A DNA stretch of 64,000 bases, taken from contig CADCIX010000004.1 of assembly GCA_902801565.1 (NCBI GenBank), positions 1 to 64,000 on the forward strand. Direction: 5' to 3'. Positions 8,441-30,070 of this stretch are shown one piece after another; position 1 is the stretch's first letter, and every line of letters starts with the position of its first letter. This DNA comes from an uncultured Veillonellaceae bacterium (GTDB lineage: Bacteria > Bacillota > Negativicutes > Selenomonadales > Selenomonadaceae). A program made the translations under genes and the position numbers. The notes below the pieces were generated by a model, which saw only the letters and a program-made list of their open reading frames with translations, was not told where the DNA came from and searched no databases.

Positions 8441-11400
8441 TCAATTTCTATCATTGTCCGATTTGAGCAAGTGTTTGTTCTCATACATTCTTTGGTCAGC
8501 GCGTTCAAAGACTGCGGCTACGCATTTGTCATTTTCATATCTTGACATGCCGCAAGCAATCCCGATTCCATTTGCACGGGCAGCTTCCTCATTATATCTG
8601 CGCATTGCTTCAATCCGTTCATCAATTTGCTCATAATCCTGACCCTGTGCAATCACAGCAAACTCATCACCACCCACTCGGAAAACCGGACTACGCTTGA
8701 AGATATCACAGATGATCTTACTTGCGTCACGGATGCACCGATCGCCGGCTTGATGTCCAAAGGAATCGTTGATCTTTTTCAGATTGTTCACGTCAAGAAT
8801 CACGATGGCGAAGGGCGTTTGCTGATGATCCGTTATCTGACGGTCCAACAGCGTCTCCATCTCCAAATAGGCATGCTTGTTCTTGATGCCTGTCAGCGCG
8901 TCAATAGTCGCCCGGGACTGTGCTTGATCAAGGCGTTCTTTCATTTCCGTCTCCTGCCGAACCTGCTTATCAATGTCATTAACCCCGACGATCAAGCGCG
9001 GACCATCCTTCTCCTCAACCAATGCAGCCTTCATCTGAACGTGAAGCGGCTTGCCATCCATCATGATGCGGTAACCCCATGTGAAGATACCACTGCGTTC
9101 AATCTCTGCCAGTATGTTTTCTTTGGTGAAGGCCGCGAGGAAACGGCTCAAATCCTGTGGATGGTTATAAACACAGGCATCCCTCCGCACTGCGTTGAAG
9201 AAGTCTGTCCCCTCCTTCTCCGTGTCGAAGCTCTCCACATAGTTACTGGTGGCACTGAACTCCCGATAGTGGTCGGTCTCGGGATCCACAACGTAGATGA
9301 CAATAAAGTTGCCGGTGATCGCATGCAGACGGGCATAGATGACCCGCTCCTCCCGGATGCGTGCCTCCTCGCGGCGATGCTGCATCACCTCATCGATATC
9401 CCTGACGGCAAGGACGATAAACCGCGGATCATCCTCCATGCGCGTAACTCTCATCAAGACATAGAAGGTCCGGCCATCCTTGATCCTGCGGTAAACCAGC
9501 TCGAACACCTCGTTGCCTTCCAGTGCTTTGGAGAGGAACTCCCGATTCATGGCCTGCACGAAGGCTTCCTGATCCTCCGGATGCACGAACAGCCTGGCAT
9601 CCCGTTTGCATCCTTCAAAGAAGTCCGAGCCCCTCCGCGCTTCACTGAGCACGCCGCGTTCGTTGTCGGTATTGAATTCGATGAACTCGTCGTTGTCCAT
9701 ATTGACATAGTACAGATCCGTGTAGCCCCTGGCCAGTCCATGTGCCAGATGCGTAAAGATCATGGCGGTATCGCTCGCCTTCCGATAGTCCTCCTTTGCC
9801 CGGGTGTTTTCCCGCTGCAAGCGAAGAATGCCCGTCACGTCCTGGCAGAAGCCCTGCAGGCATAAGCGCCCGGAGGGGTCGGTGTATTTCAGCTTGGTGG
9901 TCCAGAACTGGCGCTGATTCCCCGCAGCGTCCGGCACATCCTCAAAGAAGATGTACGGCTTGTCCATCCGGAGTGCTGCCTGATCATCCTCCACAAAATG
10001 CGCTGCCGTCTCCGCATCGAAAATCTCTGCGTCTGTCAAGCCCACAACTCCATCCGGCGTCTCCTTATGCGCGTATTCCGCAAAAGCCTGGTTGCAGGCC
10101 AGATAGACGCCAGTTCCAGCGTCTTTTGTAAAGGCCATGCCGGGAATGCTGTCCAGCAGGGAGGTGATCGTCTGATTCAATGCGCCGATCTTCCGAGCCT
10201 CCTCCTGCTGTTTCATATGCGCGTCAATGATGCTGATGCCAAGGATGAGGCAGTTTCCGCCGTGCATCCGCGTGATTTTCATATTGACATACATGGGGGA
10301 TCCCGTATCGATCAGACGGTAGGTGGTTGTAAACACGCCCTGCTTTTCAATCTCCCGAAGAACATTTTCCTTTGTAAACAAGGCAAGGAAGGGTTCTCTG
10401 TCTTCTTCATAAATACGGGTCATTGCCTCGCGTCTTGCCGACGCAAAGAAATCCTCGCCGTGCCGCACGACAGACAGTTCTTCACCGCCAACCTGGGAAG
10501 AATACTCAATGTAGTCGTTTGTATCCAGGTCAATCGCGAAGATATTGTAATAGTCGGCGGCAAGAGCCTGCGCGATATCAGCATATGTTTCGCCTTTGCC
10601 CGATTCACTGATAAAGAGCACGGCAATCGCAACCGATTCCTTCCCGTTCACCGGATTTTTCCCAAGGATCCTTACAAAGGAATGAACAACAGCGCCGTCC
10701 TGGATTTCTTCGTCAACAAATGTGCGGTTGTTATTGTCCCTGCTTTGCTCAATTGCTTTCATGAAAGTTGAGCCTGGGCCTTCCATTGGAACAGTATATT
10801 CCACCTCCGGATCAGACAGATCGAACCCGAAAGCGCGTCTCATGAAATCACGGAAGGACTGATTGCTTCGGACATATTTTACTTTGTCTCCTTCGGCACT
10901 GACTTCCATAATGCCCATAGGAACCGTATCAAAGGTGTTTTTGGTCACGCTGTCATCCAGATTTGCCAGGAAGGACAGGTCGAAGAGGTTCACTCGTCCG
11001 ATACGCTCATAGTACCTTGATTCCTGCGGATTTTCTCTTTGAATCAGGTTGCTTCTTTCGCGCAGCACCTTGAGCGTCCCAAAGGGTATCGGCTTGCTGA
11101 AGTAGAATCCCTGCAGCTTGGAGCAGCCGATTTCCCGCAGGAAACGAACCTGCTCCTCGGTTTCCACGCCCTCACATACGGTGTCCACACCAAGGGAAGC
11201 AGCCATCTTCATCAGCTCGGTCAGAATGATTTTCCCGCCGTCTCCCTCGTCCAGCTTCCGCAGGAAGCTCATATCAAATTTGATCAGATCAAACTGAATG
11301 CTCTGAAGCACGTTCAGGGATGAATAACCGCTTCCGAAGTCATCCATCCAAACAGGGAAGCCGAGATTCCGGAACCTTTCAATCTGCTCCTTCATGAATC

Positions 11401-13210
11401 CAAGATCACTGCCGATGATGCTCTCTGTAATCTCAATGTTAAGCAGAGCCCGGTCCATGCCAGCCTCATCCACACGCTTCCTTATCTCTTCCACTATGTC
11501 ACAGGCGTCGAAATCGGAACGCGAGAGGTTCACGGAATGGGGGACGGCATAAAAACCGGCGGCCCTTTTTTCTTTCATGGAATCCAAAATCTGATCGACC
11601 ATGTACAGATCCAGCTTGTAGATCAGTCTCGCATCTTCCAGGGCCGGAATGAAGTCAGCCGGGGACAGAAAACCTTTTTCCGGATCGATCCATCTTGCCA
11701 GCGCTTCCACATCGCAAACCTGTTCACTGACGGCGCGAATGATTGGCTGGAGATACATCTGAATCCATTTTTCTTTGATTGCCCTGTCAATATTCTCGAT
11801 GATGTACTGCCTTTTCGCAGCTTCTTCACTCAGATTCTGATCGTAATAGCTTACAGCCGTCTCATATCTGCCGCTTAATTCGCCGCAAGCCATCTTTGCC
11901 CTGTCACAAGCAACACTGGCAGGAACTGGTTCACTCTCCGCAATATAGACGCCGATATGGACAGGAAGGTTCTTCCCTTCATTCATCTCCCGGCTCTTTG
12001 CGAACAAGTCAAGCAGTTTATTGTCCAGACCGTCCTTTTCCGTCTGTACAGCGAAATGATCGGCGCTGATGCGGCAGCTATGCTCCTTTCCAAAGGTGCC
12101 TGCCAGTATTTCCGCAAAAGCCCTGAGCAGGTTGTCGCCCTCAAGAAAGCCGTACTTCGTATTGAAGAACTTCATTCCGCTGAAATCCATATACAGCAAA
12201 ACAGGCGTACCACCATTTTCCAGTAACCTGTCCCTGCCTGCCTCCGCCAGTTCAAAGAAATAAGACATGTTCGGAAGACCGGTAAGAGCATCATAACGCA
12301 GCTTCTCTTCCTGCTCTTTCCGGACGGTGTGAATTCTCTGCATGGCAATCACGATGATAGCAGCCAAAAGCAGAACCACAAAAAGGATAGCTAACCTGTA
12401 TTGATAAAGATAATCATAGAGATCATACTGATACAATCGTTTGGAGGTATGCTCCAGAACGATTGCCTGGCGGCGGGTGTCGGTCAGCGAGGCAATGCCG
12501 CTGTTCAGCCGCTCAATGATCATGCGGCCTTCCTGCGTATCCTTTGCCCCTGCCCGGAAGTCCATGGAAAACATGGCCGATGGCTGAACCACCAGGTCAC
12601 CGTAGGACGGCTTTTGCAGTACGTAGCTCCAGACATAGGAGTTGTGCAGCAAAGCGTCCACTTTTCCTGCACGGAGCGCGTTCACACATTCGTCCATCGT
12701 ATCGTACATCGTGATTTCGATGCCCGGAAAAAGCTTGCGGACAGTTTCCGCCCCTCCGCCAAGGGAACTGAGCATCCCGACGCGAATATCATTCAAAGGA
12801 GGCACCTCGCGGCGGTTTTCCGTGACCAGGACAAACGGTGTCTGTATCAATTTGTCTGAAACGACAGATGGATTCCCGGCACTGCTGGTAATGGCGCTGC
12901 CAAAGGGTAAAACAATGTCATACGCATCGTTATCCAGCGCATCCTTCAGCGTTCCTTCCCCGATGGGCATAAAGGTGACGGAGTATCCTGCTTCTTCCGC
13001 TGCCGTACGCATCAGGTCCACGCCAATGCCGGTAAGCTCTCCGGTGTCTGTATCCTGATAGAAGACAGGACATCGGTTCGCTGGCACGCCAACCGTCAGA
13101 GCATCATCCTTCCCGGGGGCGGCAAGGGCTGGCATGACCGCCAAAGACAGCACAACGATCACGCATAACAGGACAGTCAATAGAACCTTTACTATTCTTT
13201 TTTCTCTCAT
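8441..13210 (-). CDS. Membrane signalling protein: solute-binding domain, degenerate GGDEF, EAL, PAS repeats, GGDEF
   Basis: 1589 residues from the ATG at 13210, where a clean signal peptide begins (MREKRIVKVLLTVLL...PALAAP). Order seen: periplasmic solute-binding domain (about 35-265), membrane helix (about 273-295), a GGDEF domain whose active site is degenerate (RISADHF instead of GGDEF), an EAL domain (about 490-740), several PAS-like sensor modules, and a C-terminal GGDEF with intact RVGGDEF. The EAL domain keeps EALARW, NIEITES, DDFGSGYSSL, IKFD and EGVETEEQ, so phosphodiesterase activity is plausible. The last GGDEF lacks the RxxD inhibitory site at the usual place, so it should escape product inhibition. 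It probably links an external amino-acid-like ligand to cyclic di-GMP turnover. No obvious operon partner. Confidence 0.88.
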   Translation of the reverse strand: MREKRIVKVLLTVLLCVIVVLSLAVMPALAAPGKDDALTVGVPANRCPVFYQDTDTGELTGIGVDLMRTAAEEAGYSVTFMPIGEGTLKDALDNDAYDIVLPFGSAITSSAGNPSVVSDKLIQTPFVLVTENRREVPPLNDIRVGMLSSLGGGAETVRKLFPGIEITMYDTMDECVNALRAGKVDALLHNSYVWSYVLQKPSYGDLVVQPSAMFSMDFRAGAKDTQEGRMIIERLNSGIASLTDTRRQAIVLEHTSKRLYQYDLYDYLYQYRLAILFVVLLLAAIIVIAMQRIHTVRKEQEEKLRYDALTGLPNMSYFFELAEAGRDRLLENGGTPVLLYMDFSGMKFFNTKYGFLEGDNLLRAFAEILAGTFGKEHSCRISADHFAVQTEKDGLDNKLLDLFAKSREMNEGKNLPVHIGVYIAESEPVPASVACDRAKMACGELSGRYETAVSYYDQNLSEEAAKRQYIIENIDRAIKEKWIQMYLQPIIRAVSEQVCDVEALARWIDPEKGFLSPADFIPALEDARLIYKLDLYMVDQILDSMKEKRAAGFYAVPHSVNLSRSDFDACDIVEEIRKRVDEAGMDRALLNIEITESIIGSDLGFMKEQIERFRNLGFPVWMDDFGSGYSSLNVLQSIQFDLIKFDMSFLRKLDEGDGGKIILTELMKMAASLGVDTVCEGVETEEQVRFLREIGCSKLQGFYFSKPIPFGTLKVLRERSNLIQRENPQESRYYERIGRVNLFDLSFLANLDDSVTKNTFDTVPMGIMEVSAEGDKVKYVRSNQSFRDFMRRAFGFDLSDPEVEYTVPMEGPGSTFMKAIEQSRDNNNRTFVDEEIQDGAVVHSFVRILGKNPVNGKESVAIAVLFISESGKGETYADIAQALAADYYNIFAIDLDTNDYIEYSSQVGGEELSVVRHGEDFFASARREAMTRIYEEDREPFLALFTKENVLREIEKQGVFTTTYRLIDTGSPMYVNMKITRMHGGNCLILGISIIDAHMKQQEEARKIGALNQTITSLLDSIPGMAFTKDAGTGVYLACNQAFAEYAHKETPDGVVGLTDAEIFDAETAAHFVEDDQAALRMDKPYIFFEDVPDAAGNQRQFWTTKLKYTDPSGRLCLQGFCQDVTGILRLQRENTRAKEDYRKASDTAMIFTHLAHGLARGYTDLYYVNMDNDEFIEFNTDNERGVLSEARRGSDFFEGCKRDARLFVHPEDQEAFVQAMNREFLSKALEGNEVFELVYRRIKDGRTFYVLMRVTRMEDDPRFIVLAVRDIDEVMQHRREEARIREERVIYARLHAITGNFIVIYVVDPETDHYREFSATSNYVESFDTEKEGTDFFNAVRRDACVYNHPQDLSRFLAAFTKENILAEIERSGIFTWGYRIMMDGKPLHVQMKAALVEEKDGPRLIVGVNDIDKQVRQETEMKERLDQAQSRATIDALTGIKNKHAYLEMETLLDRQITDHQQTPFAIVILDVNNLKKINDSFGHQAGDRCIRDASKIICDIFKRSPVFRVGGDEFAVIAQGQDYEQIDERIEAMRRYNEEAARANGIGIACGMSRYENDKCVAAVFERADQRMYENKHLLKSDNDRN

Positions 13211-13315
13211 CGTTGAGCACCATCCTCTATCTTCCTTCACGGGTTCACTACTACAAGTATTCGTCACATCTGTCGAAAGTCCTTCCTTTGACACAGGCCT
13301 TGTGCCTCAGCTTTA

Positions 13316-16175: not shown

Positions 16176-16940
16176 TCACAAAAGTGCCCTTTGAATACGA
16201 AACAATTCCTCAAGCAGCCATTCGGAAAACACGGCTCCTTCGGGCTGCAATAGACAATTTCCCCCCACCATGCCCCCCAGGGATCTTGCCGCAAAGGCCC
16301 TGTCTGCAACCTCCAGCATGGGAAGATCCATGGTGCTGTCACCGGCGGCGCAGACATAGCAGCCCTGCCTTGTTTCTTTCAGCCGTGCCAGAGCTTTGCC
16401 CTTCCCCACCGCCGGAGGAAAGAAATAGATCTTCCTGCCCATATGCTCCACATCCAACTGCGTCTGTGTGCGAAATGCATTTGCATGGGCCGCAGCATCC
16501 ACACCCTCATCACAGTACAGGAACAGATAGCTGTCATCCACGATCCGGCAACGGATAAAATCCTTTACCAAGGACTGTCTCTCACAGTGCGCATTCATCT
16601 CGTCACGCCAGGCATCTATCAAAGGTTTCACCTGCCCTGCCCACGCATCATCAGGTGTGCCCCGGCGCAGCAGAACAGCCCCGTTGGTGGTGACAGCCAG
16701 TTCCGGCTCGCAGCCTTCCGGCCAGCTGATTCTCTTGTACTGCTCTATGGACCGTGTCGTGACCGGCACGAGTTCCACCAGCTGCACAGCCCGCCGCAGG
16801 AGGTCGATGGCCTTTCTGGTCAGGAAGCTCTGTTCCCTGCCCTGGTACAGCTCCACACATACATCCCCATCCTGCCTGCATCGATGGGAAACCAGCAGGG
16901 TGTTGTCAAGGTCACAGGCAAAAAGTATCTTCTTCTCCAT
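16176..16940 (-). CDS. HAD-superfamily phosphatase of the Ter biosynthetic module
   Basis: 254 residues. All HAD motifs are visible: FACDLDNTLL (nucleophile and general acid Asp), PVTTRS (motif II Thr), a Lys in GKGKAL and AAGDSTMDLPML (metal-binding Asp). The large cap is of the Cof-like type. It is the last gene of the leftward Ter cluster and its start overlaps the stop of the PRTase-PELOTA gene (TGATG). HAD phosphatases occur in Ter-linked operons with two PRTases and an aldolase, where they are proposed to dephosphorylate a nucleotide-like intermediate. The substrate is unknown. Confidence 0.82.
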   Translation of the reverse strand: MEKKILFACDLDNTLLVSHRCRQDGDVCVELYQGREQSFLTRKAIDLLRRAVQLVELVPVTTRSIEQYKRISWPEGCEPELAVTTNGAVLLRRGTPDDAWAGQVKPLIDAWRDEMNAHCERQSLVKDFIRCRIVDDSYLFLYCDEGVDAAAHANAFRTQTQLDVEHMGRKIYFFPPAVGKGKALARLKETRQGCYVCAAGDSTMDLPMLEVADRAFAARSLGGMVGGNCLLQPEGAVFSEWLLEELFRIQRALL

Positions 16941-17992
16941 CAGTTATCCGCCAGAGATTGTATCAATCCGCAAGCAAGATAGTTCTGCAGGGGATATTCC
17001 ACAACCTCCACTCCTTTCTCCCGGGCCAGTTCATAGAGATGCCCCAGCCGTTCTTCATCCTTGAGACTGTATACCAATACTTTCCAGGGCAGACGCCGCA
17101 GGAGCACCCTGGTGGCCTCGCCGATTCCCGGCTTTACGAGATTGATGTCCCCGATGCCAAAGGCCCTGGCAATCCGCAGGACCTCATCCATTCCGGTGCC
17201 TTGCCCGGAGCCTTCCTTTTCCCGGGCTTCCGCCGACCGGGGAAATTCCCGCTCCACTGCTCCGATGAACTGATAGGTCAGGTCCTGATTCATCAGTTCT
17301 TTATAAAAAGCTGCCCCATGGAAATCCTCGGGGCCTATGATGTCCTCCCGCAGGAACGTGCGGCTCAAAAGCCCGGATACCGTGGAGTTCAGGCAGGAAC
17401 TGGCAATCAGGAAGTCTTCATGGGTGCCGCACTTCTCTGCCACATGGGCAGGATCGGAGAGCACTGCCAGTCCGGGACTCACCAGAGGATAGTCCTGCAT
17501 GGCCTTGTCCAGTTCCCTCTGGATGGCCCCCTTGCCCGTCCAGCCATCCACAAACTGGATATTCTCCGGCTTATGGCGGGCAAGGATATAGTCCATGGCA
17601 TTCCTGTCGATCCCCAGGCCACGAATGATGGATATGGTATAGTGGGGCACTGTTGCCTGATATCTCTTCTGCAGGTAATGACGGATGAGGATGCCGATGG
17701 GTGTGCCTGCCCGTGCCAGGGACACCAGCACCGCATCTTTCCCCTTCTGCCCATAGATCTTCTCGCTGACGGATGCCGTAGCTTCCGCCGTGATCCTGGC
17801 ATAACGGCCCAAGGCATCATAATATGCCTTCAGGTATTTTTCCGTGGGCTCATACTCTATGGGCAGCATTTCCGAATAATGCCGCCCTCCCTGTATGAGC
17901 CTCTCCCGCTCCTTCGTGCCCATGGGCTTTACCTGGCCGGTGATGTCCTTGAGCAGTATGGTGACATCCTCCGGACGATATGTGCTAAACAT
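16940..17992 (-). CDS. PRTase-like protein with C-terminal PELOTA-like domain (StiP family)
   Basis: 350 residues from the ATG at 17992, which has GGGAGG seven bases upstream; a GTG two codons earlier is the alternative. The N-terminal two thirds fit the PRTase_1/StiP family: VLVSLARAGTPIGIL, HYTISIIRGLGIDRNAM and a PRPP-loop-like IQFVDGWTGKGAI. The C-terminal ~90 residues (INLVKPGIGEATRVLLRRLPW then VLVYSLKDEERLGHLYELA) fit the PELOTA RNA-binding domain described on such proteins. It probably acts with the PRTase-TRSP protein to build a ribosylated metabolite. The ribosome binding site directly abuts MITE copy C, so the insertion left this start intact. Confidence 0.75.
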   Translation of the reverse strand: MFSTYRPEDVTILLKDITGQVKPMGTKERERLIQGGRHYSEMLPIEYEPTEKYLKAYYDALGRYARITAEATASVSEKIYGQKGKDAVLVSLARAGTPIGILIRHYLQKRYQATVPHYTISIIRGLGIDRNAMDYILARHKPENIQFVDGWTGKGAIQRELDKAMQDYPLVSPGLAVLSDPAHVAEKCGTHEDFLIASSCLNSTVSGLLSRTFLREDIIGPEDFHGAAFYKELMNQDLTYQFIGAVEREFPRSAEAREKEGSGQGTGMDEVLRIARAFGIGDINLVKPGIGEATRVLLRRLPWKVLVYSLKDEERLGHLYELAREKGVEVVEYPLQNYLACGLIQSLADN

Positions 17993-18004
17993 CTTCACGC
18001 CTCC

Positions 18005-18209
18005 CTAGTGTCCCACCTCGTTCATATCCACAATAATTGCCCGATATGCAGCCATCTGCGTTGTCATCGGTCGGGGAATTCTTCGCCAATGGCTCAGAAC
18101 TCCCGTTGACATGCCACTGGCATGTCAACCAGTTGGCGTAGCCACCGCTACGCATCTGACTTCATCTCGAACAATTATTTTTATGTTTCTGAACGAGGTG
18201 GGACACTAG
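18005..18209. mobile_element. MITE, copy C (205 bp, perfect 20-bp inverted ends)
   Basis: The ends are CTAGTGTCCCACCTCGTTCA and its exact reverse complement. The terminal CTAG at both sides fits IS630/mariner-type insertion with TA duplication. There is no coding content. It lies between two genes of the Ter cluster, and its right end forms the last codons of the PRTase-TRSP gene. Internal palindromic pieces (GACATGCCACTGGCATGTC, GTAGCCACCGCTAC) would let the transcript fold. Confidence 0.85.
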
Positions 18210-19361
18210 GTAAAAAATCCTGCCACAGCCATTCTCCTTCAAGGCCCCGAGAAGCCCTTGCATGCGCTCCTCCTCCGGCAGGGGCGTATCCGACAGGATG
18301 ATGACCTGTTCATAGCTCCGCAGATTGTAGATGAAATTCCTGCGTGTACCGCTCCTGTCATACAGGCTGCCGATTTCCCATCCATTCCTTATGGGATAGC
18401 CTTCTGCCCTGCAAATGCTGATGGGGCTTCTGGTGGTGGCATGGAAAAAGACCTTTGCCCCTCTCTGTTCCAAGGCCCTGCCAAGAATGAGCCCCGGAAG
18501 CATGCATTCCTCCGTTCCCAGGACCAGTGTGTCTGCCTTGAGATCCAGAGGCAGCTGCGCCAGTATCTCATCTGCGGACTGTTCCCACTGGCGGAAATAT
18601 TCCCCTGCTGCCGTTCCCCGTCTGGGGTCATGCCCCATCTTCACCAGATGGCGCTCATAGGCGCAATCCTTGCCCCTTGGCGCAACTGCGGCTTCCTCTG
18701 CCTGGAATTTCTCCACAAGCATCGTATAGTCGGTCTGGGGAAGCCTGACCAGCCATTCGCTTTTTACTCCGGCAGCCTCCAAACGCTGCTCATTCTCCGG
18801 GGACAAGCGGTTCAGGATAGAAGCGGCCACCAGCCTTTTTCCTTCCAACGCCGGGAATTCCTCTTTCAGGCGGGCAATGATATTGCAGATCGTCTTTCCC
18901 GTTGAGATTTCGTCATCCACGAACACCACCGTGTCCGTACGTGCAAGCCATTCCTCCAGGTGTTCCGTCACAAGGCTCTGCTCCGGTGCATGGCTGTGCT
19001 CTTCCAGAAAGTCGATATGCGCCCCCAAATCAGGCAATTCCTCCCGGGTGGTCTGAAGGTATACGCACTCCTCACTGATGGCATTGGCCACCACCGCTCC
19101 TATGGCGGTGGCAGTCTCCGCAAAGCCGATGACCAGCCTGGCATCGCCATGCCTTGCCGCCACCTTGTCCCCAAGTGCCTGCATCATGGAAAGAGCCAAG
19201 GATGGGCTTACGGGCACATGTTTTCCCTGCAGGGGATTTACCAGTATATATTTGCGCTTCCTGTTGTTGTGCCGTTTGGCCACGCGCAGCAGATCTTCAG
19301 CCGTGAAGTCTGCTTGTTGCTCTATAGCTGTCCCGTAGCCTTGCCTCGTCCCTGATTCCAT
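18162..19361 (-). CDS. Phosphoribosyltransferase with TRSP domain
   Basis: 399 residues. The PRPP-binding loop TVVFVDDEISTGKTICNII (about residue 140) is a classic type I PRTase motif, and FAETATAIGAVVANAI supplies another phosphoribosyl-binding loop. The C-terminal half contains FHATTRSPISI, the motif naming the TRSP domain found after PRTase_2 in Ter-linked operons. The ATG at 19361 has GGGGGAT seven bases upstream, so the 65-base overlap with the aldolase gene looks real. Roughly the last 16 residues are encoded by MITE copy C, which also provides the stop; the native tail was replaced or the native stop displaced. Confidence 0.78.
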   Translation of the reverse strand: MESGTRQGYGTAIEQQADFTAEDLLRVAKRHNNRKRKYILVNPLQGKHVPVSPSLALSMMQALGDKVAARHGDARLVIGFAETATAIGAVVANAISEECVYLQTTREELPDLGAHIDFLEEHSHAPEQSLVTEHLEEWLARTDTVVFVDDEISTGKTICNIIARLKEEFPALEGKRLVAASILNRLSPENEQRLEAAGVKSEWLVRLPQTDYTMLVEKFQAEEAAVAPRGKDCAYERHLVKMGHDPRRGTAAGEYFRQWEQSADEILAQLPLDLKADTLVLGTEECMLPGLILGRALEQRGAKVFFHATTRSPISICRAEGYPIRNGWEIGSLYDRSGTRRNFIYNLRSYEQVIILSDTPLPEEERMQGLLGALKENGCGRIFYLVSHLVQKHKNNCSR

Positions 19362-20316
19362 AGATATCCCCCAAGATCTTTGTACGTTCTGCCCATCTGC
19401 GATGTGTCTTCACCTCATTCATGCGGCTGCCGTCTGCGCTCTTGACCACGCCCAGCTTCTCCACATCCCACAGCAGGACCTGTCTGGCATCCTCATAGTC
19501 CGTATGGCTGACCTTCAGGCTGTCATAGATGTGAGGCAGCTGGGAAGGATGTATCGCGGTCTTACCGATAAAGCCATTGATGCGGTCCAGCTTCAGCTCC
19601 TGCAAAAGCCCCTCCAGCCAGTCAAAGCCCTTCTTGTCGTCAAAGTATTCCCATACAGGTCCTGACACCACATAATCCCTTACGAACACATTCAGTATGT
19701 CCACCAGGATGTCGCGGATGACCCCCACGGAATAGATCGGCGTGTCCACCGGGCGGCGAAGGCCATACAGATTGCTGAAATCATTGCCGCCTACCCGCAC
19801 ATTCAGCACGAACTCCTTCATGCTGTCAAGGATTTCCTTGATTCCATGAAGCACAGGCACACGGGTCTCATTGTCCGCGATCATACCGCTTTCCAGGACA
19901 GGCATCACATACAGCGGTTCCTGCCGTCCCCTGTTGATCTCCCGAAGGACCTCCCTGTAGGCCTCCCCGTTGCTTATATCAAATTTCGGCAGGATATAGC
20001 CCGTGAGTACATTCTCCGCTTCGCCAAGGAAAACAGAGATATGCCGCATATGCTCCGGCGTGCGCACCCGCACAAACAAGAGCGGCAGCTGTTCCCGCCT
20101 CTCCTCGTATGCGGAACGCATCTCCTCCAGTATGCTGCCAAGGTTCTTCTCCGCATCTTCCAACGCCTCGTCCTGAATGGCATCCTCCAGGCAAAAAGCA
20201 ACAGACGTCAAGCCGGCAATTTTCCGTCCAAGAATCTTTTCTACCATATTCTCCTGAAAGGCAGGCATGTACAAAAGACCGCCTACCATGTATTGCAAAG
20301 TTCTCTTCTCAATCAT
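19297..20316 (-). CDS. HpcH/HpaI aldolase / citrate-lyase beta-like enzyme
   Basis: 339 residues. A CitE-like TIM-barrel: LLYMPAFQENMVEKIL at the start, AFCLEDAIQDE (acidic metal-site region), PLLFVRVRTPEHM (substrate Arg), YILPKFD, YVMPVLES and FIGKTAIHPSQLPHIY near the end, where KxAIHPxQ is typical. Family members cleave or form C-C bonds of acyl-CoA or oxo acids. In Ter clusters a CitE-like enzyme sits beside the PRTases and HAD enzyme and is thought to serve the same unknown pathway. The start at 20316 has GAGGG eight bases upstream. Confidence 0.85.
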   Translation of the reverse strand: MIEKRTLQYMVGGLLYMPAFQENMVEKILGRKIAGLTSVAFCLEDAIQDEALEDAEKNLGSILEEMRSAYEERREQLPLLFVRVRTPEHMRHISVFLGEAENVLTGYILPKFDISNGEAYREVLREINRGRQEPLYVMPVLESGMIADNETRVPVLHGIKEILDSMKEFVLNVRVGGNDFSNLYGLRRPVDTPIYSVGVIRDILVDILNVFVRDYVVSGPVWEYFDDKKGFDWLEGLLQELKLDRINGFIGKTAIHPSQLPHIYDSLKVSHTDYEDARQVLLWDVEKLGVVKSADGSRMNEVKTHRRWAERTKILGDIYGIRDEARLRDSYRATSRLHG

Positions 20317-20382: not shown

Positions 20383-21072
20383 TTATTTGGATTTGGGAGG
20401 AGGTATCATGGACCGGATCCAGGCCTCAAAGCTGCTCGGATTCCTTGTCTGGATCAAGATAACTCCCGGGCCACGGAAACGGCACACAAGTCCCTCTCCG
20501 GAAGTAAGGCTTGAAAACCAGCCGCTGGAGGCTTTTTCTATCTTGTAGTGCATATAGTCAGGCCATGCCACCAGATGCCCATTGTCGATGATGAATTCTT
20601 CCCCGTCATCCAGATTGATGGGATGGATCACCCCATAGCTGCTGATGAACACAGTTCCCCTGCCTTTGATATTGAGCACGAACAGCCCTTCGCCGGAGAA
20701 CAGTCCTTGGGACAGGTTCTGCATTTTGGTATCCACCTGCACATCCTGTGTACCGGCAAGGAATCCATCCTTCTGCACCACCAGCCCATAAGAACCGTCC
20801 AGATCCACATCCATGATGCCGCCGGGATAGGGATGCCCCAGCAACACCGTCCCGTCACCACGATTTGCCGCAAGTTCCTGGAAGAAGAAGCTCTCCCCTG
20901 CCAGCACTTTGCGCATGAGTCCCTTGAGGATGCCTCCTTCCATTTTTCCTTCCACATCCACCGTAGCGGACATGGCCACCATGGCATCCGATTCTGCCTT
21001 CAGCCGCTCACCACGCTTCAGATGGCACTCTATGACCGGAAATGCCTCAGGATAAAGTATCTTGTAGTCCAT
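20383..21072 (-). CDS. AIM24 / TIGR00266 family protein
   Basis: 229 residues. A beta-rich protein with recurrent glycines: VEGKMEGGILKGLMRKVLAGESFFFQE is the family's recognisable centre, followed by YGVVVQKDGFLAG-like and GRGTVFISSYG segments. AIM24-like proteins share a fold with the trp RNA-binding attenuation protein; their bacterial role is unknown, but they often occur beside TerD genes. There is no signal peptide. It lies 12 bases after the TerD gene at 21085 and is likely cotranscribed. Confidence 0.8.
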   Translation of the reverse strand: MDYKILYPEAFPVIECHLKRGERLKAESDAMVAMSATVDVEGKMEGGILKGLMRKVLAGESFFFQELAANRGDGTVLLGHPYPGGIMDVDLDGSYGLVVQKDGFLAGTQDVQVDTKMQNLSQGLFSGEGLFVLNIKGRGTVFISSYGVIHPINLDDGEEFIIDNGHLVAWPDYMHYKIEKASSGWFSSLTSGEGLVCRFRGPGVILIQTRNPSSFEAWIRSMIPPPKSK

Positions 21073-21707: not shown

Positions 21708-22904
21708 TTACTCAACATCAATCCCATACTGTTCGCACAGCCGCTTCAGCCCGGCCATGAACCCGGCTCCAACGGCTTTCATCTTCCATTCCCCCTTATG
21801 CCTGTATATCTCAAGCGCATTTACCACGCGCTCCAACCCAAGCTCCAGCAGAAACTCATACTTACAATTGCCATCCATGAATATCCTGACCATGGGATTT
21901 TTCACCCTGGAGAAATTCCTGGTTGTATTCCCATCTTCCGCATATACTGCAAAGGCAACAACGATGCTTTCCACATCCTTGCCGACATTCTTCAGGCAGA
22001 TGCCGACTCCCTGGCTCTCATCCATACGGTCGATATAGACGCCATTGCTTTCAGACTGCGTATTGCCAAAGAAAATCAGGTCGCTGTCCTGCCGGGTTTT
22101 TCCATCTTCATAGAGCAGGAACGCATAGGGATCCACTTCCAGACCGCTATATTCCCCTTGAAAGCCTATAAATAGCTTCTCTGCATTTCCCAAGGGAATA
22201 CGCTGCCCCTTGATCAATTTGGGCACCGATGATCCATTTATTGCACGGCTGCCACTATCTTGTCCCGCCATATGACCATTGCCAACGGCATTGCTGCCCG
22301 GCATTGCCTTCTGCTCATGCACCTCCGGCACTCCCTGCACGGCGCGCCCGCTTATGTAGATCCTCTTGTTCACGCCGTAATCCGTCTGCAGGAGAACATC
22401 CCCATACAGAATCGTGAAATTCATAAGGGACGTGACCTTGAAGGATACCTCATTCCTGCCGGCCGATATTGTCTGGGGTTTTATGTCCATGCCATGGACA
22501 TTATTGACAATACGGCAGTTCCTTTCTGCAACGATTTCCCGGCAAAACTCATTCGCCTTGCCCGCTGCAAAGGCACCAAAGTCCAGCATCCTTGGCAGCT
22601 TCCACTTGGAGACCGTGCCATTGATATCTTCCTGGCCATGGACTTCCACATCTTTGAGCACGGTATCATTCTTGACCTTGATGGCAACGATCTGCTCCGG
22701 ATGATCCGTTATCTCCACACGCAGATGATTTATTGTCACATTGGCAGAATCCACAATCAGTGCCGTTTCGCCCTTAGACCAAAGGGTAGCCCCATGCCCG
22801 TCGATGGTGCAGGAGCGATTAATCCGCAAGGGGCCCTCATACTCACCCATGGGGATATCTATCTTCGAATTTCCGCTATTAACGATCTGTTGAATGGATT
22901 TCAT
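21708..22904 (-). CDS. Beta-helix domain fused to a divergent TerD domain
   Basis: 398 residues. Residues about 1-115 read like a right-handed beta-helix of the pectate-lyase type (IDIPMGEYEGPLRINRSCTI, then short repeated beta turns INHLRVEI and LKDVEVHG). Residues about 230-398 are a TerD domain (IPLGNAEKLFIGFQGEY, LIFFGNTQSESNGVYIDRMD, EIYRHKGEWKMKAVG). The calcium-loop motif [13 protein letters not shown] is absent; the corresponding part reads DRMDESQGVGICL, so calcium binding may be lost. There is no signal peptide, so it is probably cytosolic. It sits between the kinase and the second TerD gene, suggesting it is a substrate, scaffold or ligand-recognition partner. Confidence 0.75.
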   Translation of the reverse strand: MKSIQQIVNSGNSKIDIPMGEYEGPLRINRSCTIDGHGATLWSKGETALIVDSANVTINHLRVEITDHPEQIVAIKVKNDTVLKDVEVHGQEDINGTVSKWKLPRMLDFGAFAAGKANEFCREIVAERNCRIVNNVHGMDIKPQTISAGRNEVSFKVTSLMNFTILYGDVLLQTDYGVNKRIYISGRAVQGVPEVHEQKAMPGSNAVGNGHMAGQDSGSRAINGSSVPKLIKGQRIPLGNAEKLFIGFQGEYSGLEVDPYAFLLYEDGKTRQDSDLIFFGNTQSESNGVYIDRMDESQGVGICLKNVGKDVESIVVAFAVYAEDGNTTRNFSRVKNPMVRIFMDGNCKYEFLLELGLERVVNALEIYRHKGEWKMKAVGAGFMAGLKRLCEQYGIDVE

Positions 22905-22916
22905 AGCTTTACCCCA

Positions 22917-24413
22917 TTATCCCTTTACTGCCTCCAGCAGAAGCGCATTCTGCTCATTGCAGGATGGAAACATCTCCCCATCCCGCAGCCAAACCGCCTG
23001 TCCCACCGGTACCAGATTCCCTTTTGGCGAAAGCATGCCCGTCAAGGCATTGTTGACCAGATACCAGGCTTCCCCCTGATGGCTGATATACGCCTGCATG
23101 GAACGGTCCTGCATCTTTTCATCGGGATAGACATCTGCCACGAAATGCCAGTGGAACAAGGGCATCTTATCGTAAAGATTGATTTCCCCCACCTGCTGCC
23201 ACTGCCCCCTGCGCCCACGCATGGGCTTCTTGAGGCGCAGATGCATCACATCCCTGGCATCTATCCTCTGCCCGCAATGGGGACAGACCGGCCTGCGCAA
23301 ATCGTGCAGGATGAACCATTTCCCCCGGCAATTGGGATTTCTGCAGGGCTGCAGCAGATCCCAGGTCTTCACCAATGCTTTTTCCCATTGGGCTGCGGTT
23401 GGACGTTTCTCCGGGTCATGCATGCCATCCACAAAGGCCTGAAGGAAAAGCTTCTCCAAATGAGGCCCCAGGTCATGGATGGTCACCTGCAGGTCATCCG
23501 GCCTGTTGGAGGTATCCTGGGGATTCTCAATGAACGTGGCCTTGGGGCCATACTGCAGGAACTCATCTTCCTCCGTGGAAGCTGTGCTGTAGATCTTCGG
23601 CCCATCCAGGGGATGCCTTCTCAGCAGATACTCATACAAGAGTACCGGCAGGGCAAACAGGTCCGTGGCAGCACAGGGAAGCTTCCTGCCCGGATCGTCA
23701 AAGGACAGCTCCATGGTCTCCAGGACTTCCGGCGCTATGTACCCCTTGGTGCCCGCCACCTCCGGAGGGAAAAGTCCCGGCACCACCAGAGAGTCTATGT
23801 CTATGACCACGCAGGTTCCGGTCCTGGGATCGATGAGGACATTGTTGCTGGACAGGTCCGAATGTGACAGCCCCGCCGTATGGAGCCGCCGCACTGCCCT
23901 TGCCAATGAAATGGACAGCCTCAGCATGGTCTGGAAATTCCCACACTCGTCATCCGTCAGCCACTTGCTGGTACGGGAAGTAAACCACCTGCTCTTTTTG
24001 TCCTTCCCTGCCAGGTCAAGATTCACGCCATTTTTCACCGCATGCTTGCCAAAAAAGAAATTGGGCGGATAGACCGGGCAGACAACGCCAAACTGGGGTG
24101 ACTTTATCAGGGCGGCAGGCCAGCAATAAAGATTGGAAAAATATGTCGCCGTTTCCCTGGTATTCCCCAGAGCGCCGCCTTCCTCCTCAGACAAGGTGGG
24201 ATTGTAGAGACCCACGATGTTTTCAAGCCTTGCCTTCATCTGGGGAGATTCCGCATCCTCTTTCTTGTTGAAGAACTGTACGGCGAATTTCCGGTCTGGG
24301 GTAAAATAGGTATGCTTCATGCCGCCCTGTGGCGGGTTGTCCGTCCATACGTATTCTATTTCCCTGTCGTCCATCAGAATGGCTTTTTCAATATGCTGGT
24401 TCTTTTTCGCCAT
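22917..24413 (-). CDS. Protein kinase-like protein with C-terminal zinc ribbon (Ter triad)
   Basis: 498 residues. The kinase fold is shown by the catalytic loop LSHSDLSSNNVLID (HxDxxxxN, about residue 183), the metal-binding VIDIDSL, GTKGYIAPEVLE (APE motif) and the late-helix ATDLFALPVLLYEYL. The usual VAIK lysine is not evident: the matching strand reads KFAVQFF, with Gln at that place. After the kinase lies a zinc ribbon, CRNPNC...CPHC (about 360-385). Together with the adjacent PP2C and vWA genes it forms the kinase-phosphatase-TerY triad of Ter systems. It overlaps the PP2C gene by 26 bases and has its own GGGGAG site. Confidence 0.82.
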   Translation of the reverse strand: MAKKNQHIEKAILMDDREIEYVWTDNPPQGGMKHTYFTPDRKFAVQFFNKKEDAESPQMKARLENIVGLYNPTLSEEEGGALGNTRETATYFSNLYCWPAALIKSPQFGVVCPVYPPNFFFGKHAVKNGVNLDLAGKDKKSRWFTSRTSKWLTDDECGNFQTMLRLSISLARAVRRLHTAGLSHSDLSSNNVLIDPRTGTCVVIDIDSLVVPGLFPPEVAGTKGYIAPEVLETMELSFDDPGRKLPCAATDLFALPVLLYEYLLRRHPLDGPKIYSTASTEEDEFLQYGPKATFIENPQDTSNRPDDLQVTIHDLGPHLEKLFLQAFVDGMHDPEKRPTAAQWEKALVKTWDLLQPCRNPNCRGKWFILHDLRRPVCPHCGQRIDARDVMHLRLKKPMRGRRGQWQQVGEINLYDKMPLFHWHFVADVYPDEKMQDRSMQAYISHQGEAWYLVNNALTGMLSPKGNLVPVGQAVWLRDGEMFPSCNEQNALLLEAVKG

Positions 24414-25902
24414 CCTGCTCTCCCCTTTGCAAGATTACCAGGGTGCGGTCATCAAAGGAACCCCTGACCACGTAATTGTCCAGCCATTCCTTCAGCCTTG
24501 AGGCCGGACTCTTGCCCCTGTCCATCTCAATCGTTCCGGACATTACAGCCAACTGATCCTTATGCTCTTCCCATAGAGTCTTCAAGTCTATATTATGCTT
24601 TTCACAAAGCTCCTTGACATACTGCACAGGCACCATCTTCGGCACCTCGTCTCCACTCACAGCCGGATAAGATTGCGGAGCAGGCACACTTTTCTCCAAA
24701 TCCATGCGCTTCATCTTATCCATATGTTTCAGCAGGCAGTCCATCTCAGGCGAAGCTATCACACGATTGACCAGCAGATCCAGGTACAGCCGGAACATCT
24801 CCTTGCCATTTGGCTCATAATCATCTGCTACACCATCGGTCATTGACATGATAATATCAATTTTCTTTCTCGCAACCCTTGTTCTCCCCATCAGGCTCTG
24901 CAGCGAATCAATGGAAGAACTGGTCAAAAACTCCGTTTCTCCGGCGAAGGCTCCACTATCAGCATCCCCCAGAAGAGTGACCATCTGCTCATAGTCTGCC
25001 TGCCGATTCATTGCAACGGTCATCCCATCTCCCACCTGACAGGTTGCAACAAAGATTTCATCAGAACCATCCACAGGCATAGCCAAGGTAAGCAGAAGCG
25101 TAGCTGCAAAATCATTCAGCTGCAAGTCACGTTTTACTGCATCGGCATAGCTTCGGCTGCCCCGTCTCTCTTCATAGGCACTTATCACATTCTGCCGGGC
25201 GGCCAAAACTGCCTCCTGGACAATCTTCGCCATCTGCGAGGCAGCTTGCTGAAACCTGCTGCTCTGCATATTCTGGGACAAATCCACTTTCAGGGCACGA
25301 TTTTTACGAAGGAGTCCTCTGAGTTCCTTTTCAAGATAATGCATTGCGCCTTCACATGACGCTTTTGCCCCTATACGAGAAAATTTTTTTGAGCCCGCTC
25401 CATCAGAAACAGCCAATACAACAAAGTTTTCTATATTCCTGGTCTCAAACCAATCATCACAGTTCGTGCCTTCATGCTTGTGCTTCTTGCCCCTCACTCT
25501 GGCGGCAGTAACATGGAATTTTCCAAGAGTGGCGGATTCGGTGATATATTCCCTGTAGGGTTCAGGCTCATCCTTGGGAACCGGCTTGTATTTCCACAAG
25601 GATGCCGTATGCGCCAACACGTCCCTGTCAGACAAGGACTGCGGCTTCTCTGGTTCCGCCTTTTCCACCGCTTCCTGCTCCAATTCATCTTTCCTGCTGG
25701 CTTTCGTCAGAGCGATATCATGTGGCTGAGGAGAGGCTTTCACAGGAACCGGCCGGTCAGGCAGCGTAGGAATCCCAATCTTTCTGACGGGCAGCCTGGC
25801 ATTGCCGACGGAGATATCTGCAGGACTCAGTATCCGCTCGCCTTTCGAGCGGACATACCCCATGCCGACCTGCTCCGTCCCGTTGTTTTCCACATTGTCC
25901 AT
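24388..25902 (-). CDS. PP2C-type protein phosphatase
   Basis: 504 residues. The first ~140 are low-complexity and charged, possibly a docking tail. The PP2C domain follows with metal-binding residues intact: GTNCDDWFE, VLAVSDGAGSKKFSRIGA, MSMTDGVADDYE and the terminal SFDDRTLVILQ. It should remove phosphate from Ser/Thr, most simply reversing the neighbouring kinase. AAGGAG eight bases before the ATG overlaps the stop codon of the vWA gene, so the two are translationally coupled. Confidence 0.86.
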   Translation of the reverse strand: MDNVENNGTEQVGMGYVRSKGERILSPADISVGNARLPVRKIGIPTLPDRPVPVKASPQPHDIALTKASRKDELEQEAVEKAEPEKPQSLSDRDVLAHTASLWKYKPVPKDEPEPYREYITESATLGKFHVTAARVRGKKHKHEGTNCDDWFETRNIENFVVLAVSDGAGSKKFSRIGAKASCEGAMHYLEKELRGLLRKNRALKVDLSQNMQSSRFQQAASQMAKIVQEAVLAARQNVISAYEERRGSRSYADAVKRDLQLNDFAATLLLTLAMPVDGSDEIFVATCQVGDGMTVAMNRQADYEQMVTLLGDADSGAFAGETEFLTSSSIDSLQSLMGRTRVARKKIDIIMSMTDGVADDYEPNGKEMFRLYLDLLVNRVIASPEMDCLLKHMDKMKRMDLEKSVPAPQSYPAVSGDEVPKMVPVQYVKELCEKHNIDLKTLWEEHKDQLAVMSGTIEMDRGKSPASRLKEWLDNYVVRGSFDDRTLVILQRGEQDGEKEPAY

Positions 25903-25914
25903 TCTATGCGCTCC

Positions 25915-26562
25915 TTAAGGAACAATGGTGAATCCCTGGGGCGGCGGCGGCAGCTCGATCGCTCCGCCCGGCTTTGCATCCAGGCTTTTGGAAGACATCT
26001 TGATGGAGCCGGATACCCAGGCAAAGAACTTGGAGAGATCACCGGCAGAGGCCGTGTTCATCAGGAGCACATTGTCCGTAATTCTCTTCAAGGTCGCCTG
26101 CTCCACATAAGGGCCTGCCCCCACCGCTATGATGTTTGCCACCTTCAGTGTCTTGATATCCGCAGTCTGACGGTCAAACTCATCATCATCGGTATGCAGG
26201 CCGTCCGTGAGGATAAAGACCAGGGGACGCCAGTCACCCTTCTGGTTTTCCGTGGTCTTCCTGACTTCTTTATCTATGCACTCGCGCAAGACCTTCAGGG
26301 CACCGCCCAATGCCGTGGCACCGCTGGCCTCCAGTTTCGGCTCCTTGAAAAGCATCAATTCCGTCAAGGGCGAGGTCTGCTGTGCCACGCTGGCAAAGGT
26401 AATGACCGAAAGACAGGCTGTCTCAAGGGCCTGCGGGTCTCCCTTCAGTTCATTGACCAGCATCTTGATTCCCTGGCGCACCGACTCGATGGGCTCCCCG
26501 GACATGGAGCCGGAACAGTCCAGCAGCAAATAAACCGGCAGTCTTCGTACATAACTTGACAT
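25915..26562 (-). CDS. TerY-like von Willebrand A domain protein
   Basis: 215 residues. A single vWA domain with a complete MIDAS: LLLDCSGSMSGEP at the N-terminus and VFILTDGLHTDDDEFD later. The C-terminus ends in a proline-rich tail (ELPPPPQGFTIVP). TerY proteins are metal-dependent binding proteins coupled to a kinase and phosphatase. Start choice: ATG at 26562 gives MSSYVRRLPVYLLLD; a TTG two codons upstream also has the AAAGGAG site within range. Confidence 0.88.
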   Translation of the reverse strand: MSSYVRRLPVYLLLDCSGSMSGEPIESVRQGIKMLVNELKGDPQALETACLSVITFASVAQQTSPLTELMLFKEPKLEASGATALGGALKVLRECIDKEVRKTTENQKGDWRPLVFILTDGLHTDDDEFDRQTADIKTLKVANIIAVGAGPYVEQATLKRITDNVLLMNTASAGDLSKFFAWVSGSIKMSSKSLDAKPGGAIELPPPPQGFTIVP

Positions 26563-26627
26563 AATCAATGCACTCCTTTGTCACGCAATCGCCCAAGTCT
26601 TTCCAAGAGCCTGTATCCGTATCCTAT

Positions 26628-26699: not shown

Positions 26700-27278
26700 T
26701 TAGACATTCACACCGAAATTCCGTCCCAGTGCGGCAAGGCCACCCTGGAAGCCGCTGCCGATGGCATTGAATTTCCACTCGCTGCCATGACGATAGAGCT
26801 CGCCGACCACTACCGCTGTCTCAATGGAGAAATCCTCGCCCAGGTCATAGCGGATAAGCTCCGTGTTATTTGCTTCATCGAAAATACGGATGTAGGCATT
26901 GGACACCTGGCCAAAGTTCTGGTTGCGCGTATCTGCCTCATGAATAGTAACCGTAAAATCAATCTTGTCCACGTTGGCGGGAACCTTAGACAGATCAATC
27001 TTGATCTGCTCATCGTCACCCTCGCCTTCACCTGTCAGGTTGTCGCCAAGATGCTCAACGCTGCCGGAAGCATGTTTCAAGTTGTTGTAGAAGACGAAAT
27101 CCTCATCGCCGTTCACCTTGCCGCTGGCACCGCACAGGAATGCTGCCGCGTCCAGATCGAAATCCGAGCCGCCATCATACTTGTTGGTGTCCCAGCCCAA
27201 GCCTACAACAATCTTTGACAAACCGGGATTGGTCTTCGTCAGGTCTACCTTCTGGCCCTTCTGCAAACTTACTGCCAT
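26700..27278 (-). CDS. terD: TerD-family calcium-binding stress protein
   Basis: 192 residues, canonical TerD length. Both conserved regions are present: [22 protein letters not shown] and the acidic loop [18 protein letters not shown], ending in [20 protein letters not shown]. These match the calcium-binding sites of TerD. It is the first gene of the leftward Ter cluster and follows the Ca2+ ATPase gene. AAGGAGGAG lies upstream of the ATG. It is cytosolic and associated with tellurite, oxidative and envelope stress tolerance. Confidence 0.94.
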
Positions 27279-27348: not shown

Positions 27349-30003
27349 TCAACCCTTCATCAGCTGCTTCCTGATGAGATCCACAGGAATCATGGTAAAG
27401 GCAAGGGCAAATACCAGACCCCAGCCCGCCAGACTGAAGGGCGTGCAGCTGAACATCGCCCCGATCCACTTAAAGGCCTCAAAGGGCACAAGGGCAGCAT
27501 TCACAATCAGCATCTGCACCACGGCTATGATGACCCACACCCGCAGGAAATCGGGATTTTCGCCCAGCCGCTTGAATATCTCACTGCCATCGTCACGGAC
27601 ATTGAAGCCGTTGAAGAGGGCACTGATGACGAAGAGAACAAAGTACGCGGTGTACAGCTTTTCCTGGCTGCCAAAGAACCCGGCAAACCAGGGCACGGTC
27701 AGGAAGGCAAAGCTTATGCCCGTGAGCCAGGCCGCCATAAAGAGAATCTGGATGGCCATGGACTTGCTGATGACACTCTCATCGCGCCTGCGCGGCATCT
27801 CCCGCATATAGCGCTCAATCGCCGGCTCATTGCCCAGCATGATAGCACCCAGGCTGTCCATGACCAGATTGACGAAGAGCAGGTGGACCACCTTCAAGGG
27901 CTCCGCAATGCCAAAGAAGGGACTGCATGCCGTCACCACAACCGCCGCCACATTGATCATCAGCTGGAACTTGCAGAACTTCAGGATATTATGGTAGATG
28001 GTACGGCCATACAAGACGGCATCCTTGATGGAGCGGAAGTTGTCATCCAGGACCACGATCTCCCCGGCCTCCTTGGCCGCCTCTGTGCCGCTGCCCATGG
28101 CAAAGCCCACATCTGCCCGCTTGAGGGCCGGTGAATCGTTGACGCCGTCGCCGGTCATGCCCACCACCAGGTTCATCTCCTGGCACAGGCGCACCATACG
28201 GGACTTGTCCGTAGGCAATGCCCTGGCGATGACACGGATATCCCTGATCTGCGCCTTGAGTTCATCATCCGACATGCTGGAAAGCTGCGTGGAATCAAAG
28301 ACCTTGTCCTTGTCGGACTGTATCAGTCCTGCATCCCGGGCGATGGCAATCGCGGTCTCCTTGCGGTCACCGGTAATCATTACCACCTGTATGCCCGCCG
28401 TCTGCACCTCGCGGATGGCCTCCTGTGCCTCGGGACGCACATCATCGCGGATGGCCGCCAGGCCAATGAGCACCGCATCGCTGTTTACCTTGTTCTCCGT
28501 CATGGGCTGGCTGGAATAGGCAAAGGCCAGCACGCGCATGGCCCGTGCAGCGTAGTCATTGATTTTGTCATTGAGCTTGTCCTTGTCGGCAGTTACCACA
28601 TTGCCTGACGCATCCACGCCCTGCAGGGAATCCGCCGCCATCAGCCGCTCCGGTGCCCCCTTGTAGAACACCTTCTTTTCTTCCTTGATCTCTGCCTGGC
28701 TGAATTTGTTGGCCGAGTTGAAGCCCTGATGAGCACCTACTGTGTAGGCGCCCTGCAAATCCTGATAATCCTTTTCCCCAAGGAAACGCATGAGTGCCTG
28801 ATCCGTGGCATTGCCGCCGATCACCTGATGATTGGCATCAAACAGGGCCGCGCTGTTCTTTCCTATGGCCAGGTTCACCATTTTCTTCAGCTTGCCGTGC
28901 TGGGACAGCTTGTCCAAGGGAATGGCGCTGCCATCCGCCGCCAGGAATTCCACCACTTCCAGCTGCCCCTTGGTGATGGTGCCGGTCTTGTCGCTGAAAA
29001 GTATGTTCAGGGAGCCTGCGGTTTCAATACCCACGGCCTTGCGAACCAGTACGTTGTGATCCAGCATGCGGCTCGTATTCTGCATCAGCACCAGGGAAAT
29101 CATCAATGGAAGGCCTTCCGGCACAGCGCACACCACAATCAGGATGGCCAGGGAAACAGCCTCCACCACATCCATCAGGATGCGTTCCCATCCCAAAGCG
29201 CCATAGGCTGAAAAACCTCCGGCACCCAGAATGAAATATGCCATGTAAAGCGCCACGATGACCACTGCGGAGGCATAACCGAACACGGAAATCTGCTGTG
29301 CCAGTTTGCTGAGCTTCACCTTAAGAGGTGAGTCCGGCTCATCCTCATTCATCTCAGCAGCCATCTTGCCCATCATGGTGGCGAGTCCCACCTTGCGGAC
29401 AGCCAGGACGCCTTCCCCGTCAAAAACCACCGTTCCGCGGAACAGGAGATGGCTTCCCGTCAGATCCTCTCCCGTGACGGTCTCCGGAAAGGCAAGATTT
29501 TCCGTGGCTGCGGTCTTCTTGCATTCCTCCACCTCTCCGTTGAGCGCCGAGTTGTTTACCCTCAGGTCACCGTCTTCCAAAACCCCATCCGCGGGAATCT
29601 TGTCACCGGACTGGAGGAGCACCATGTCTCCCACCACCACATCGTCCATTTCCAGGTTGCAGACCTTGCCCTCCCGATAGACTTTGCAGGTATCCTTCTT
29701 GGTGCTTTCCTTCAGCTCCCGATACTTGGTGTCGCTGGCCACCCCGGTCTTCGCCGTGACAAAGGCCACAATCAGGACAGCCACAATGGTACCGAGAGGC
29801 TCATAGATCTGGGCATGGCCCAGGGAATACATGACAAGCATGATTACGACAATGATCAGCAGGATGCGGATCATGGGATCATTAAAGGTCTCCTTGAACT
29901 CATCCCAGAAAGTAGTAGGCTCCGAATCGGGAATCACGTTATCCCCGTGCTTCTTTCTTGATTCTTCCACCTCGGCCTGGCTAAGGCCCTGTATTTTTTT
30001 CAT
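27349..30003 (-). CDS. P-type Ca2+-transporting ATPase
   Basis: 884 residues. P-type ATPase of the Ca2+ (PMCA/SERCA-like) class. Seen: the phosphorylated Asp in LFSDKTGTITKGQLEV, MITGDRKETAIAIARDAG, the hinge MTGDGVNDSPALKRADVGFAMG, the transmembrane CAVPEGLPLMISLVL (PEGL, Ca site in helix 4) and the C-terminal cation ATPase helices. It should export Ca2+ from the cytosol. The ATG at 30003 has GGGAGG seven bases upstream; a longer frame from 30063 would begin upstream of the promoter at 30043-30070 and is rejected. Adjacency to Ca-binding TerD genes suggests shared calcium control. Confidence 0.92.
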   Translation of the reverse strand: MKKIQGLSQAEVEESRKKHGDNVIPDSEPTTFWDEFKETFNDPMIRILLIIVVIMLVMYSLGHAQIYEPLGTIVAVLIVAFVTAKTGVASDTKYRELKESTKKDTCKVYREGKVCNLEMDDVVVGDMVLLQSGDKIPADGVLEDGDLRVNNSALNGEVEECKKTAATENLAFPETVTGEDLTGSHLLFRGTVVFDGEGVLAVRKVGLATMMGKMAAEMNEDEPDSPLKVKLSKLAQQISVFGYASAVVIVALYMAYFILGAGGFSAYGALGWERILMDVVEAVSLAILIVVCAVPEGLPLMISLVLMQNTSRMLDHNVLVRKAVGIETAGSLNILFSDKTGTITKGQLEVVEFLAADGSAIPLDKLSQHGKLKKMVNLAIGKNSAALFDANHQVIGGNATDQALMRFLGEKDYQDLQGAYTVGAHQGFNSANKFSQAEIKEEKKVFYKGAPERLMAADSLQGVDASGNVVTADKDKLNDKINDYAARAMRVLAFAYSSQPMTENKVNSDAVLIGLAAIRDDVRPEAQEAIREVQTAGIQVVMITGDRKETAIAIARDAGLIQSDKDKVFDSTQLSSMSDDELKAQIRDIRVIARALPTDKSRMVRLCQEMNLVVGMTGDGVNDSPALKRADVGFAMGSGTEAAKEAGEIVVLDDNFRSIKDAVLYGRTIYHNILKFCKFQLMINVAAVVVTACSPFFGIAEPLKVVHLLFVNLVMDSLGAIMLGNEPAIERYMREMPRRRDESVISKSMAIQILFMAAWLTGISFAFLTVPWFAGFFGSQEKLYTAYFVLFVISALFNGFNVRDDGSEIFKRLGENPDFLRVWVIIAVVQMLIVNAALVPFEAFKWIGAMFSCTPFSLAGWGLVFALAFTMIPVDLIRKQLMKG

Positions 30004-30042
30004 TGACAATCCTCCCAGTTCCTGCGGTTTTCTTCCGACATC

Positions 30043-30070
30043 ATTATACCATAATTCCTTCATTTTTCAA
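30043..30070 (-). promoter_or_regulatory. Predicted promoter of the Ca2+ ATPase
   Basis: Reverse strand TTGAAA (30065-30070), 16-base spacer, TATAAT (30043-30048), about 40 bases before the ATG at 30003. Confidence 0.6.

Follow-up and report, generated by a model that had tools for sequence, protein, structure and literature searches.

The window analysed here, a stretch of 64,000 nucleotides from an uncultured Veillonellaceae bacterium, carries a run of co-directional Ter genes that extends on the minus strand from position 30063 to position 16176. Read along that strand, the genes are the following:

27349 to 30063, minus strand, Ca-type P-type ATPase
26700 to 27278, minus strand, canonical TerD
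25915 to 26568, minus strand, VWA protein (TerY-like)
24388 to 25902, minus strand, PP2C phosphatase
22917 to 24413, minus strand, Ser/Thr kinase, 12 nt upstream of the fusion gene
21708 to 22904, minus strand, fusion gene for a beta-helix, an ASH-like Ig domain and a TerD domain, 398 amino acids
21085 to 21687, minus strand, canonical TerD, 20 nt downstream of the fusion gene
20383 to 21072, minus strand, AIM24 family protein
19297 to 20316, minus strand, CitE-like C-C bond lyase (PF15617)
18162 to 19361, minus strand, PRTase_2 plus TRSP
16940 to 17998, minus strand, StiP plus PELOTA_1
16176 to 16940, minus strand, HAD-like phosphatase

Since genes for VWA, PP2C phosphatase and kinase proteins share a single co-directional series with the TerD genes, the locus is a TerY-P/Ter operon. 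The VWA, PP2C, kinase and TerD genes and the PRTase/CitE/StiP/HAD genes are shared with the known TerY-P and Ter-dependent stress systems, whereas the protein made of a beta-helix, an ASH-like domain and a TerD domain is extra, although an earlier listing of the fusion among those systems is possible. TerY-P triads have been hypothesised to act as a metal-sensing phosphorylation switch, according to PMC11090510, which cites Anantharaman et al. 2012. A Ca-type P-type ATPase consistently accompanies the Ter operons of the fusion family, and TerD and calcium ATPase genes have been found highly transcribed in a gut jumbo phage (PMC12363816). Elsewhere in the window, positions 8441 to 13294 of the minus strand encode a protein of 1617 amino acids in which a periplasmic binding domain and GGDEF/EAL-like signalling domains were recognised by eye.

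The fusion gene starts at position 22904 and ends at 21708, with an uninterrupted frame of 398 codons. Full-length, single-frame relatives were found in 11 other aligned genomes from four bacterial families, at 30-55% identity; these were found in Selenomonas sp. ND2010, in genomes of the family to which the window belongs and in three further families of Bacillota. The copy in one genome (G215) looks the same as that of Selenomonas sp. ND2010, another (L039) is cut by the end of its contig, and three matches from the wider phylum (L050-L052) were ordinary NosD-like or secreted beta-helix proteins and were not counted as members. A frameshift joining two genes, which the preliminary description had considered, is ruled out by the single frame in 12 genomes. 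A viral or phage origin was also discarded, as no relative of the protein was found in viral contigs and residues 1-195 had no match in phage records; a PADLOC search gave no match to the protein. The gene thus encodes a real, conserved bacterial protein, and its well-supported architecture comprises three domains instead of the two described initially:

22620 to 22904, minus strand, residues 1-95, short right-handed beta-helix of the NosD/pectinesterase type, no signal peptide
22644 to 22787, minus strand, residues 40-87, conserved T40, W42, R62, E64 and E87, in register
22329 to 22607, minus strand, residues 100-192, ASH/HYDIN/MSP/PapD-like Ig domain, from structure comparison
22230 to 22328, minus strand, residues 193-225, variable linker of low confidence
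21711 to 22229, minus strand, residues 226-398, TerD domain, GDNLTG...DDE loop missing
22011 to 22031, minus strand, residues 292-298, short loop replacing the acidic loop

The C-terminal 170 residues or so belong to the TerD family by both profile and fold. The Pfam model for TerD (PF02342) matched residues 229-393 with an E-value of 1.3e-27 and 97 bits, against a cut-off of 25.3, and was the only Pfam match in the whole protein. When the model of this domain was compared with the crystal structure of Streptomyces TerD (3ibz), 142 residues were superimposed with a Z of 11.8 and an rmsd of 3.6. The fold, the C-terminal motif (Y-R-H/Y-x-G-x-W-K ... G-x-G) and the Ter operon are shared with Klebsiella TerD (2kxt) and Streptomyces TerD, whereas the family protein lacks the GDNLTG...DDE loop and carries two extra N-terminal domains. 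A match about as good as those to the bacterial TerD crystal structures was obtained between model residues 226-398 and chain 7jtk_A, from radial spoke 1 of Chlamydomonas (Z 11.6, 19% identity, 155 residues), which may mean that a ciliary protein contains a TerD-like domain.

The acidic loop was followed in an alignment of 14 TerD domains of the family, eight canonical neighbours and the TerD of Klebsiella, whose first 37 residues are provisional in this alignment. The GDNLTG...DDE loop was absent from all 14 family domains and present in all eight canonical neighbours. Positions D78, N79 and D88 of Klebsiella TerD were lost along with the loop in 14/14, and D30, D35 and D38 in nearly all, while equivalents of D40/D42 and D57/D59 were retained in 13-14 of the 14 members. 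The claim that the domain keeps the TerD fold and has lost its acidic loop thus stands, but four acidic positions are kept, so that the loss of acidic positions appears in this alignment as real but partial, and some residual calcium binding by the family TerD is possible because of them. The same four positions are the basis of an alternative in which the TerD domain binds calcium through them as an ordinary sensor of lower affinity and the N-terminal domains serve for localisation only. As the retained acids may be structural, and as the loop and most of the other acidic positions have disappeared, this alternative is considered unlikely.

The segment between the helix and the linker (residues 100-192) had been missed in the preliminary description, and none of the Pfam Ig or ASH models matched it among 14 members. 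In the AlphaFold model, built on 14 relatives, a mean pLDDT of 95.7 was reported for it, whereas the confidence was low in the linker (residues 200-225). Its best structural match was 7som_D (Z 11.2, rmsd 2.1, 91 residues), followed by the PapD-like domain of HYDIN (2ys4, Z 10.5) and the ASH domain of CEP192 (6fvi, Z 8.6). Judging by this model, residues 100-192 form an Ig domain of their own, of the ASH/HYDIN/PapD-like type, which shares its fold with ASH/HYDIN/MSP/PapD-like examples (2ys4, 6fvi, 7ptb) at Z values of 8.6-11.2; these differ from it in being mostly ciliary, centrosomal or periplasmic, and the family domain has no Pfam sequence match. Known protein-binding or scaffold modules are included among its closest solved relatives, which favours a role in docking a protein over one in binding sugars. 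For the ASH domains of Spd-2/CEP192, an ability to promote the assembly of scaffolds is described in PMC11922060.

At the N-terminus, the NosD model of NCBIfam matched 12 of the 14 alignment rows, one of the 14 having no helix, with a best E-value of 8.9e-9 and a value of 1.1e-5 for the protein of the window. The family profile was aligned by hhalign with a NosD alignment at 94.3% probability, and the best three PDB sequences came from beta-helix proteins, namely a pectinesterase, an acyl-CoA thioester hydrolase and NosD, although the pectinesterase alone was significant by itself (E 0.0012). In the AlphaFold model, residues 11-90 formed an all-beta run with pLDDT values of 95-97. A Foldseek and VIA search with the N-terminal half was filled with Ig-domain matches and listed no beta-helix, and a hydrophobic autocorrelation for the helix period, whose best lag (24) was not above that of shuffled sequences (p 0.17), was excluded from the evidence. 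Sequence homology and the high-confidence all-beta model therefore uphold the beta-helix claimed earlier, but over about 95 residues and not 115; residues 1-95 are assigned as a right-handed beta-helix, its handedness resting on homology. As had also been claimed, there is no signal peptide, since a hydrophobic N-terminal segment was not found in any of 11 members. This rules out a secreted protein, and by the same criterion the protein is predicted to be cytosolic.

The helix has only three to four coils. Five of its residues, T40, W42, R62, E64 and E87, were kept in 12-13 of 13 members and are placed in register from one coil to the next; by strand alternation they would point outward, as a possible docking face. 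In four genomes (L007, L008, L041 and L044) the protein consists of the Ig and TerD domains and lacks the helix, in what is otherwise the same operon. In a tree of the shared part, from which the fourth of these sequences was left out as a near-copy, the three helix-less sequences formed one clade (99/99) among the helix-bearing ones, which suggests a single loss of the helix, the tree having long branches and a root that is not fixed.

The preliminary description had proposed a role in carbohydrate or polymer recognition. In that case the helix would bind a carbohydrate or another polymer in the cytosol and present it to the TerD complex; its homology to NosD and pectinesterase agrees with such a role, and a binding face could be made up of the conserved W42 together with acidic residues. 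Nothing positive was found in its favour beyond this: with so few coils, without the later active-site coils and with a clade that dispenses with the helix altogether, the proposal is improbable, and no cytosolic-polymer gene was found in the operon by Pfam annotation. The catalytic glutamine of pectinesterase, located in its QAVA motif, aligns with family position I72, which is variable among members. The first-coil sequence is similar to that of NosD and pectinesterase (7o0y, 4pmh), whereas the family helix is far shorter, cytosolic, devoid of catalytic residues and fused to ASH-like and TerD domains. It is very improbable that the protein is an enzyme of the pectinesterase/acyl-CoA thioesterase type, a hydrolase or esterase that would use the product of the CitE/PRTase module as its substrate. 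Its sequence does match those of pectinesterase 4pmh and of thioester hydrolase 3grh, but the match spans the early coils only, the glutamine is not conserved at the aligned position and the later coils of the active site are absent. A pectinesterase-type enzyme in particular is argued against by the variable I72 and by the family alignment, in which no conserved catalytic residues were seen, and on these sequence grounds the protein is probably non-enzymatic.

The loci of the relatives keep the same operon company: the kinase or a canonical TerD gene adjoins the fusion gene in most of them, and a CitE-like gene often comes after it. In Selenomonas sp. ND2010 (L001, 11195-18839), the fusion gene is separated from the downstream TerD/AIM24/CitE genes by unrelated lipoprotein-like and hypothetical genes that span about 7.6 kb. 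Wherever a locus is long enough to tell, canonical TerDs are nearly always found beside the fusion gene in the operon, so that the partnership with canonical TerD proteins suggested earlier is plausible. In the sample of Bacillota, a strong Ter-type CitE was detected in 6/6 genomes with the fusion gene, compared to 21 of 398 overall (Fisher 1e-8 with the genome of the window included, 2e-7 without it). Within the family, 47 genomes had a strong Ter-CitE, 12 had the fusion gene and 10 had both, the two with the fusion gene but without CitE being incomplete genomes. Most family genomes with Ter-CitE therefore lack the fusion gene and the system can work without its product, which is an accessory part of the Ter system.

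The interpretation that we tentatively favour, while giving it somewhat less than an even chance, is that the protein serves in the cytosol as a scaffold or adaptor without enzymatic activity, a subunit whose loop-less TerD domain associates with the canonical TerDs and whose arm, made of the ASH-like domain and the helix, docks a partner. This scaffold role is proposed because the protein has neither conserved catalytic residues nor a signal peptide and keeps the same operon company in its relatives, because the loop is absent in 14/14, CitE accompanies the gene in 6/6 carriers and the helix has in-register polar and aromatic positions, and because of the scaffold assembly attributed to the ASH domains of Spd-2/CEP192 in PMC11922060. 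As for the mechanism, we infer that the TerD domain would enter the canonical assembly as a calcium-insensitive subunit, and that the arm would hold either the kinase, the phosphatase or the VWA protein of the TerY-P triad or the adjacently encoded CitE-like enzyme as its most likely partner. The TerD assembly would thereby be tied to the phosphorylation switch at any calcium level. The family genomes with Ter-CitE and no fusion gene, the clade without the helix and the four retained acidic positions, which may allow some calcium binding, argue against this interpretation.

The workings of Ter (tellurite/stress) operons have been open for decades, and a protein that unites a loop-less TerD domain with two likely docking domains, and whose gene is flanked by the signalling triad on one side and the TerD/biosynthetic genes on the other, offers a concrete candidate for a physical link between the two. 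It is conceivable, if rather doubtful, that the protein forms a calcium-insensitive TerD hub, through which the assembly of calcium-binding TerDs would be physically connected either with the TerY-P phosphorylation switch or with the module predicted to carry out nucleoside-like biosynthesis. Such a hub, if real, would be an undescribed class and a first handle on how signals are passed in Ter systems.

No description of a beta-helix/ASH/TerD fusion was found in the open literature, a search that did not cover the 2012 paper on Ter systems, so an earlier mention is possible; the protein is a new domain architecture within a known kind of system. TerA-type double-TerD proteins resemble it in that a TerD protein carries an extra domain and comes from an operon of the same kind, but there the TerD domain is paired with a second TerD domain, not with a beta-helix and an ASH-like Ig domain. 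One such TerA-type protein, again with two TerD domains, is encoded in the same genome as the window, away from the main Ter operon (L021, contig 64, 1573-2874), and the canonical loop of its first TerD domain is altered (GDNLTGGSGGDAE). Other TerD fusions were also detected, namely an 809-aa TerD protein on plasmid pRUMAL02 of Ruminococcus albus (L064, 10087-12516), in which an N-terminal part of about 630 residues had no Pfam match, and likewise a protein from Streptomyces (L065, 6813-8624).
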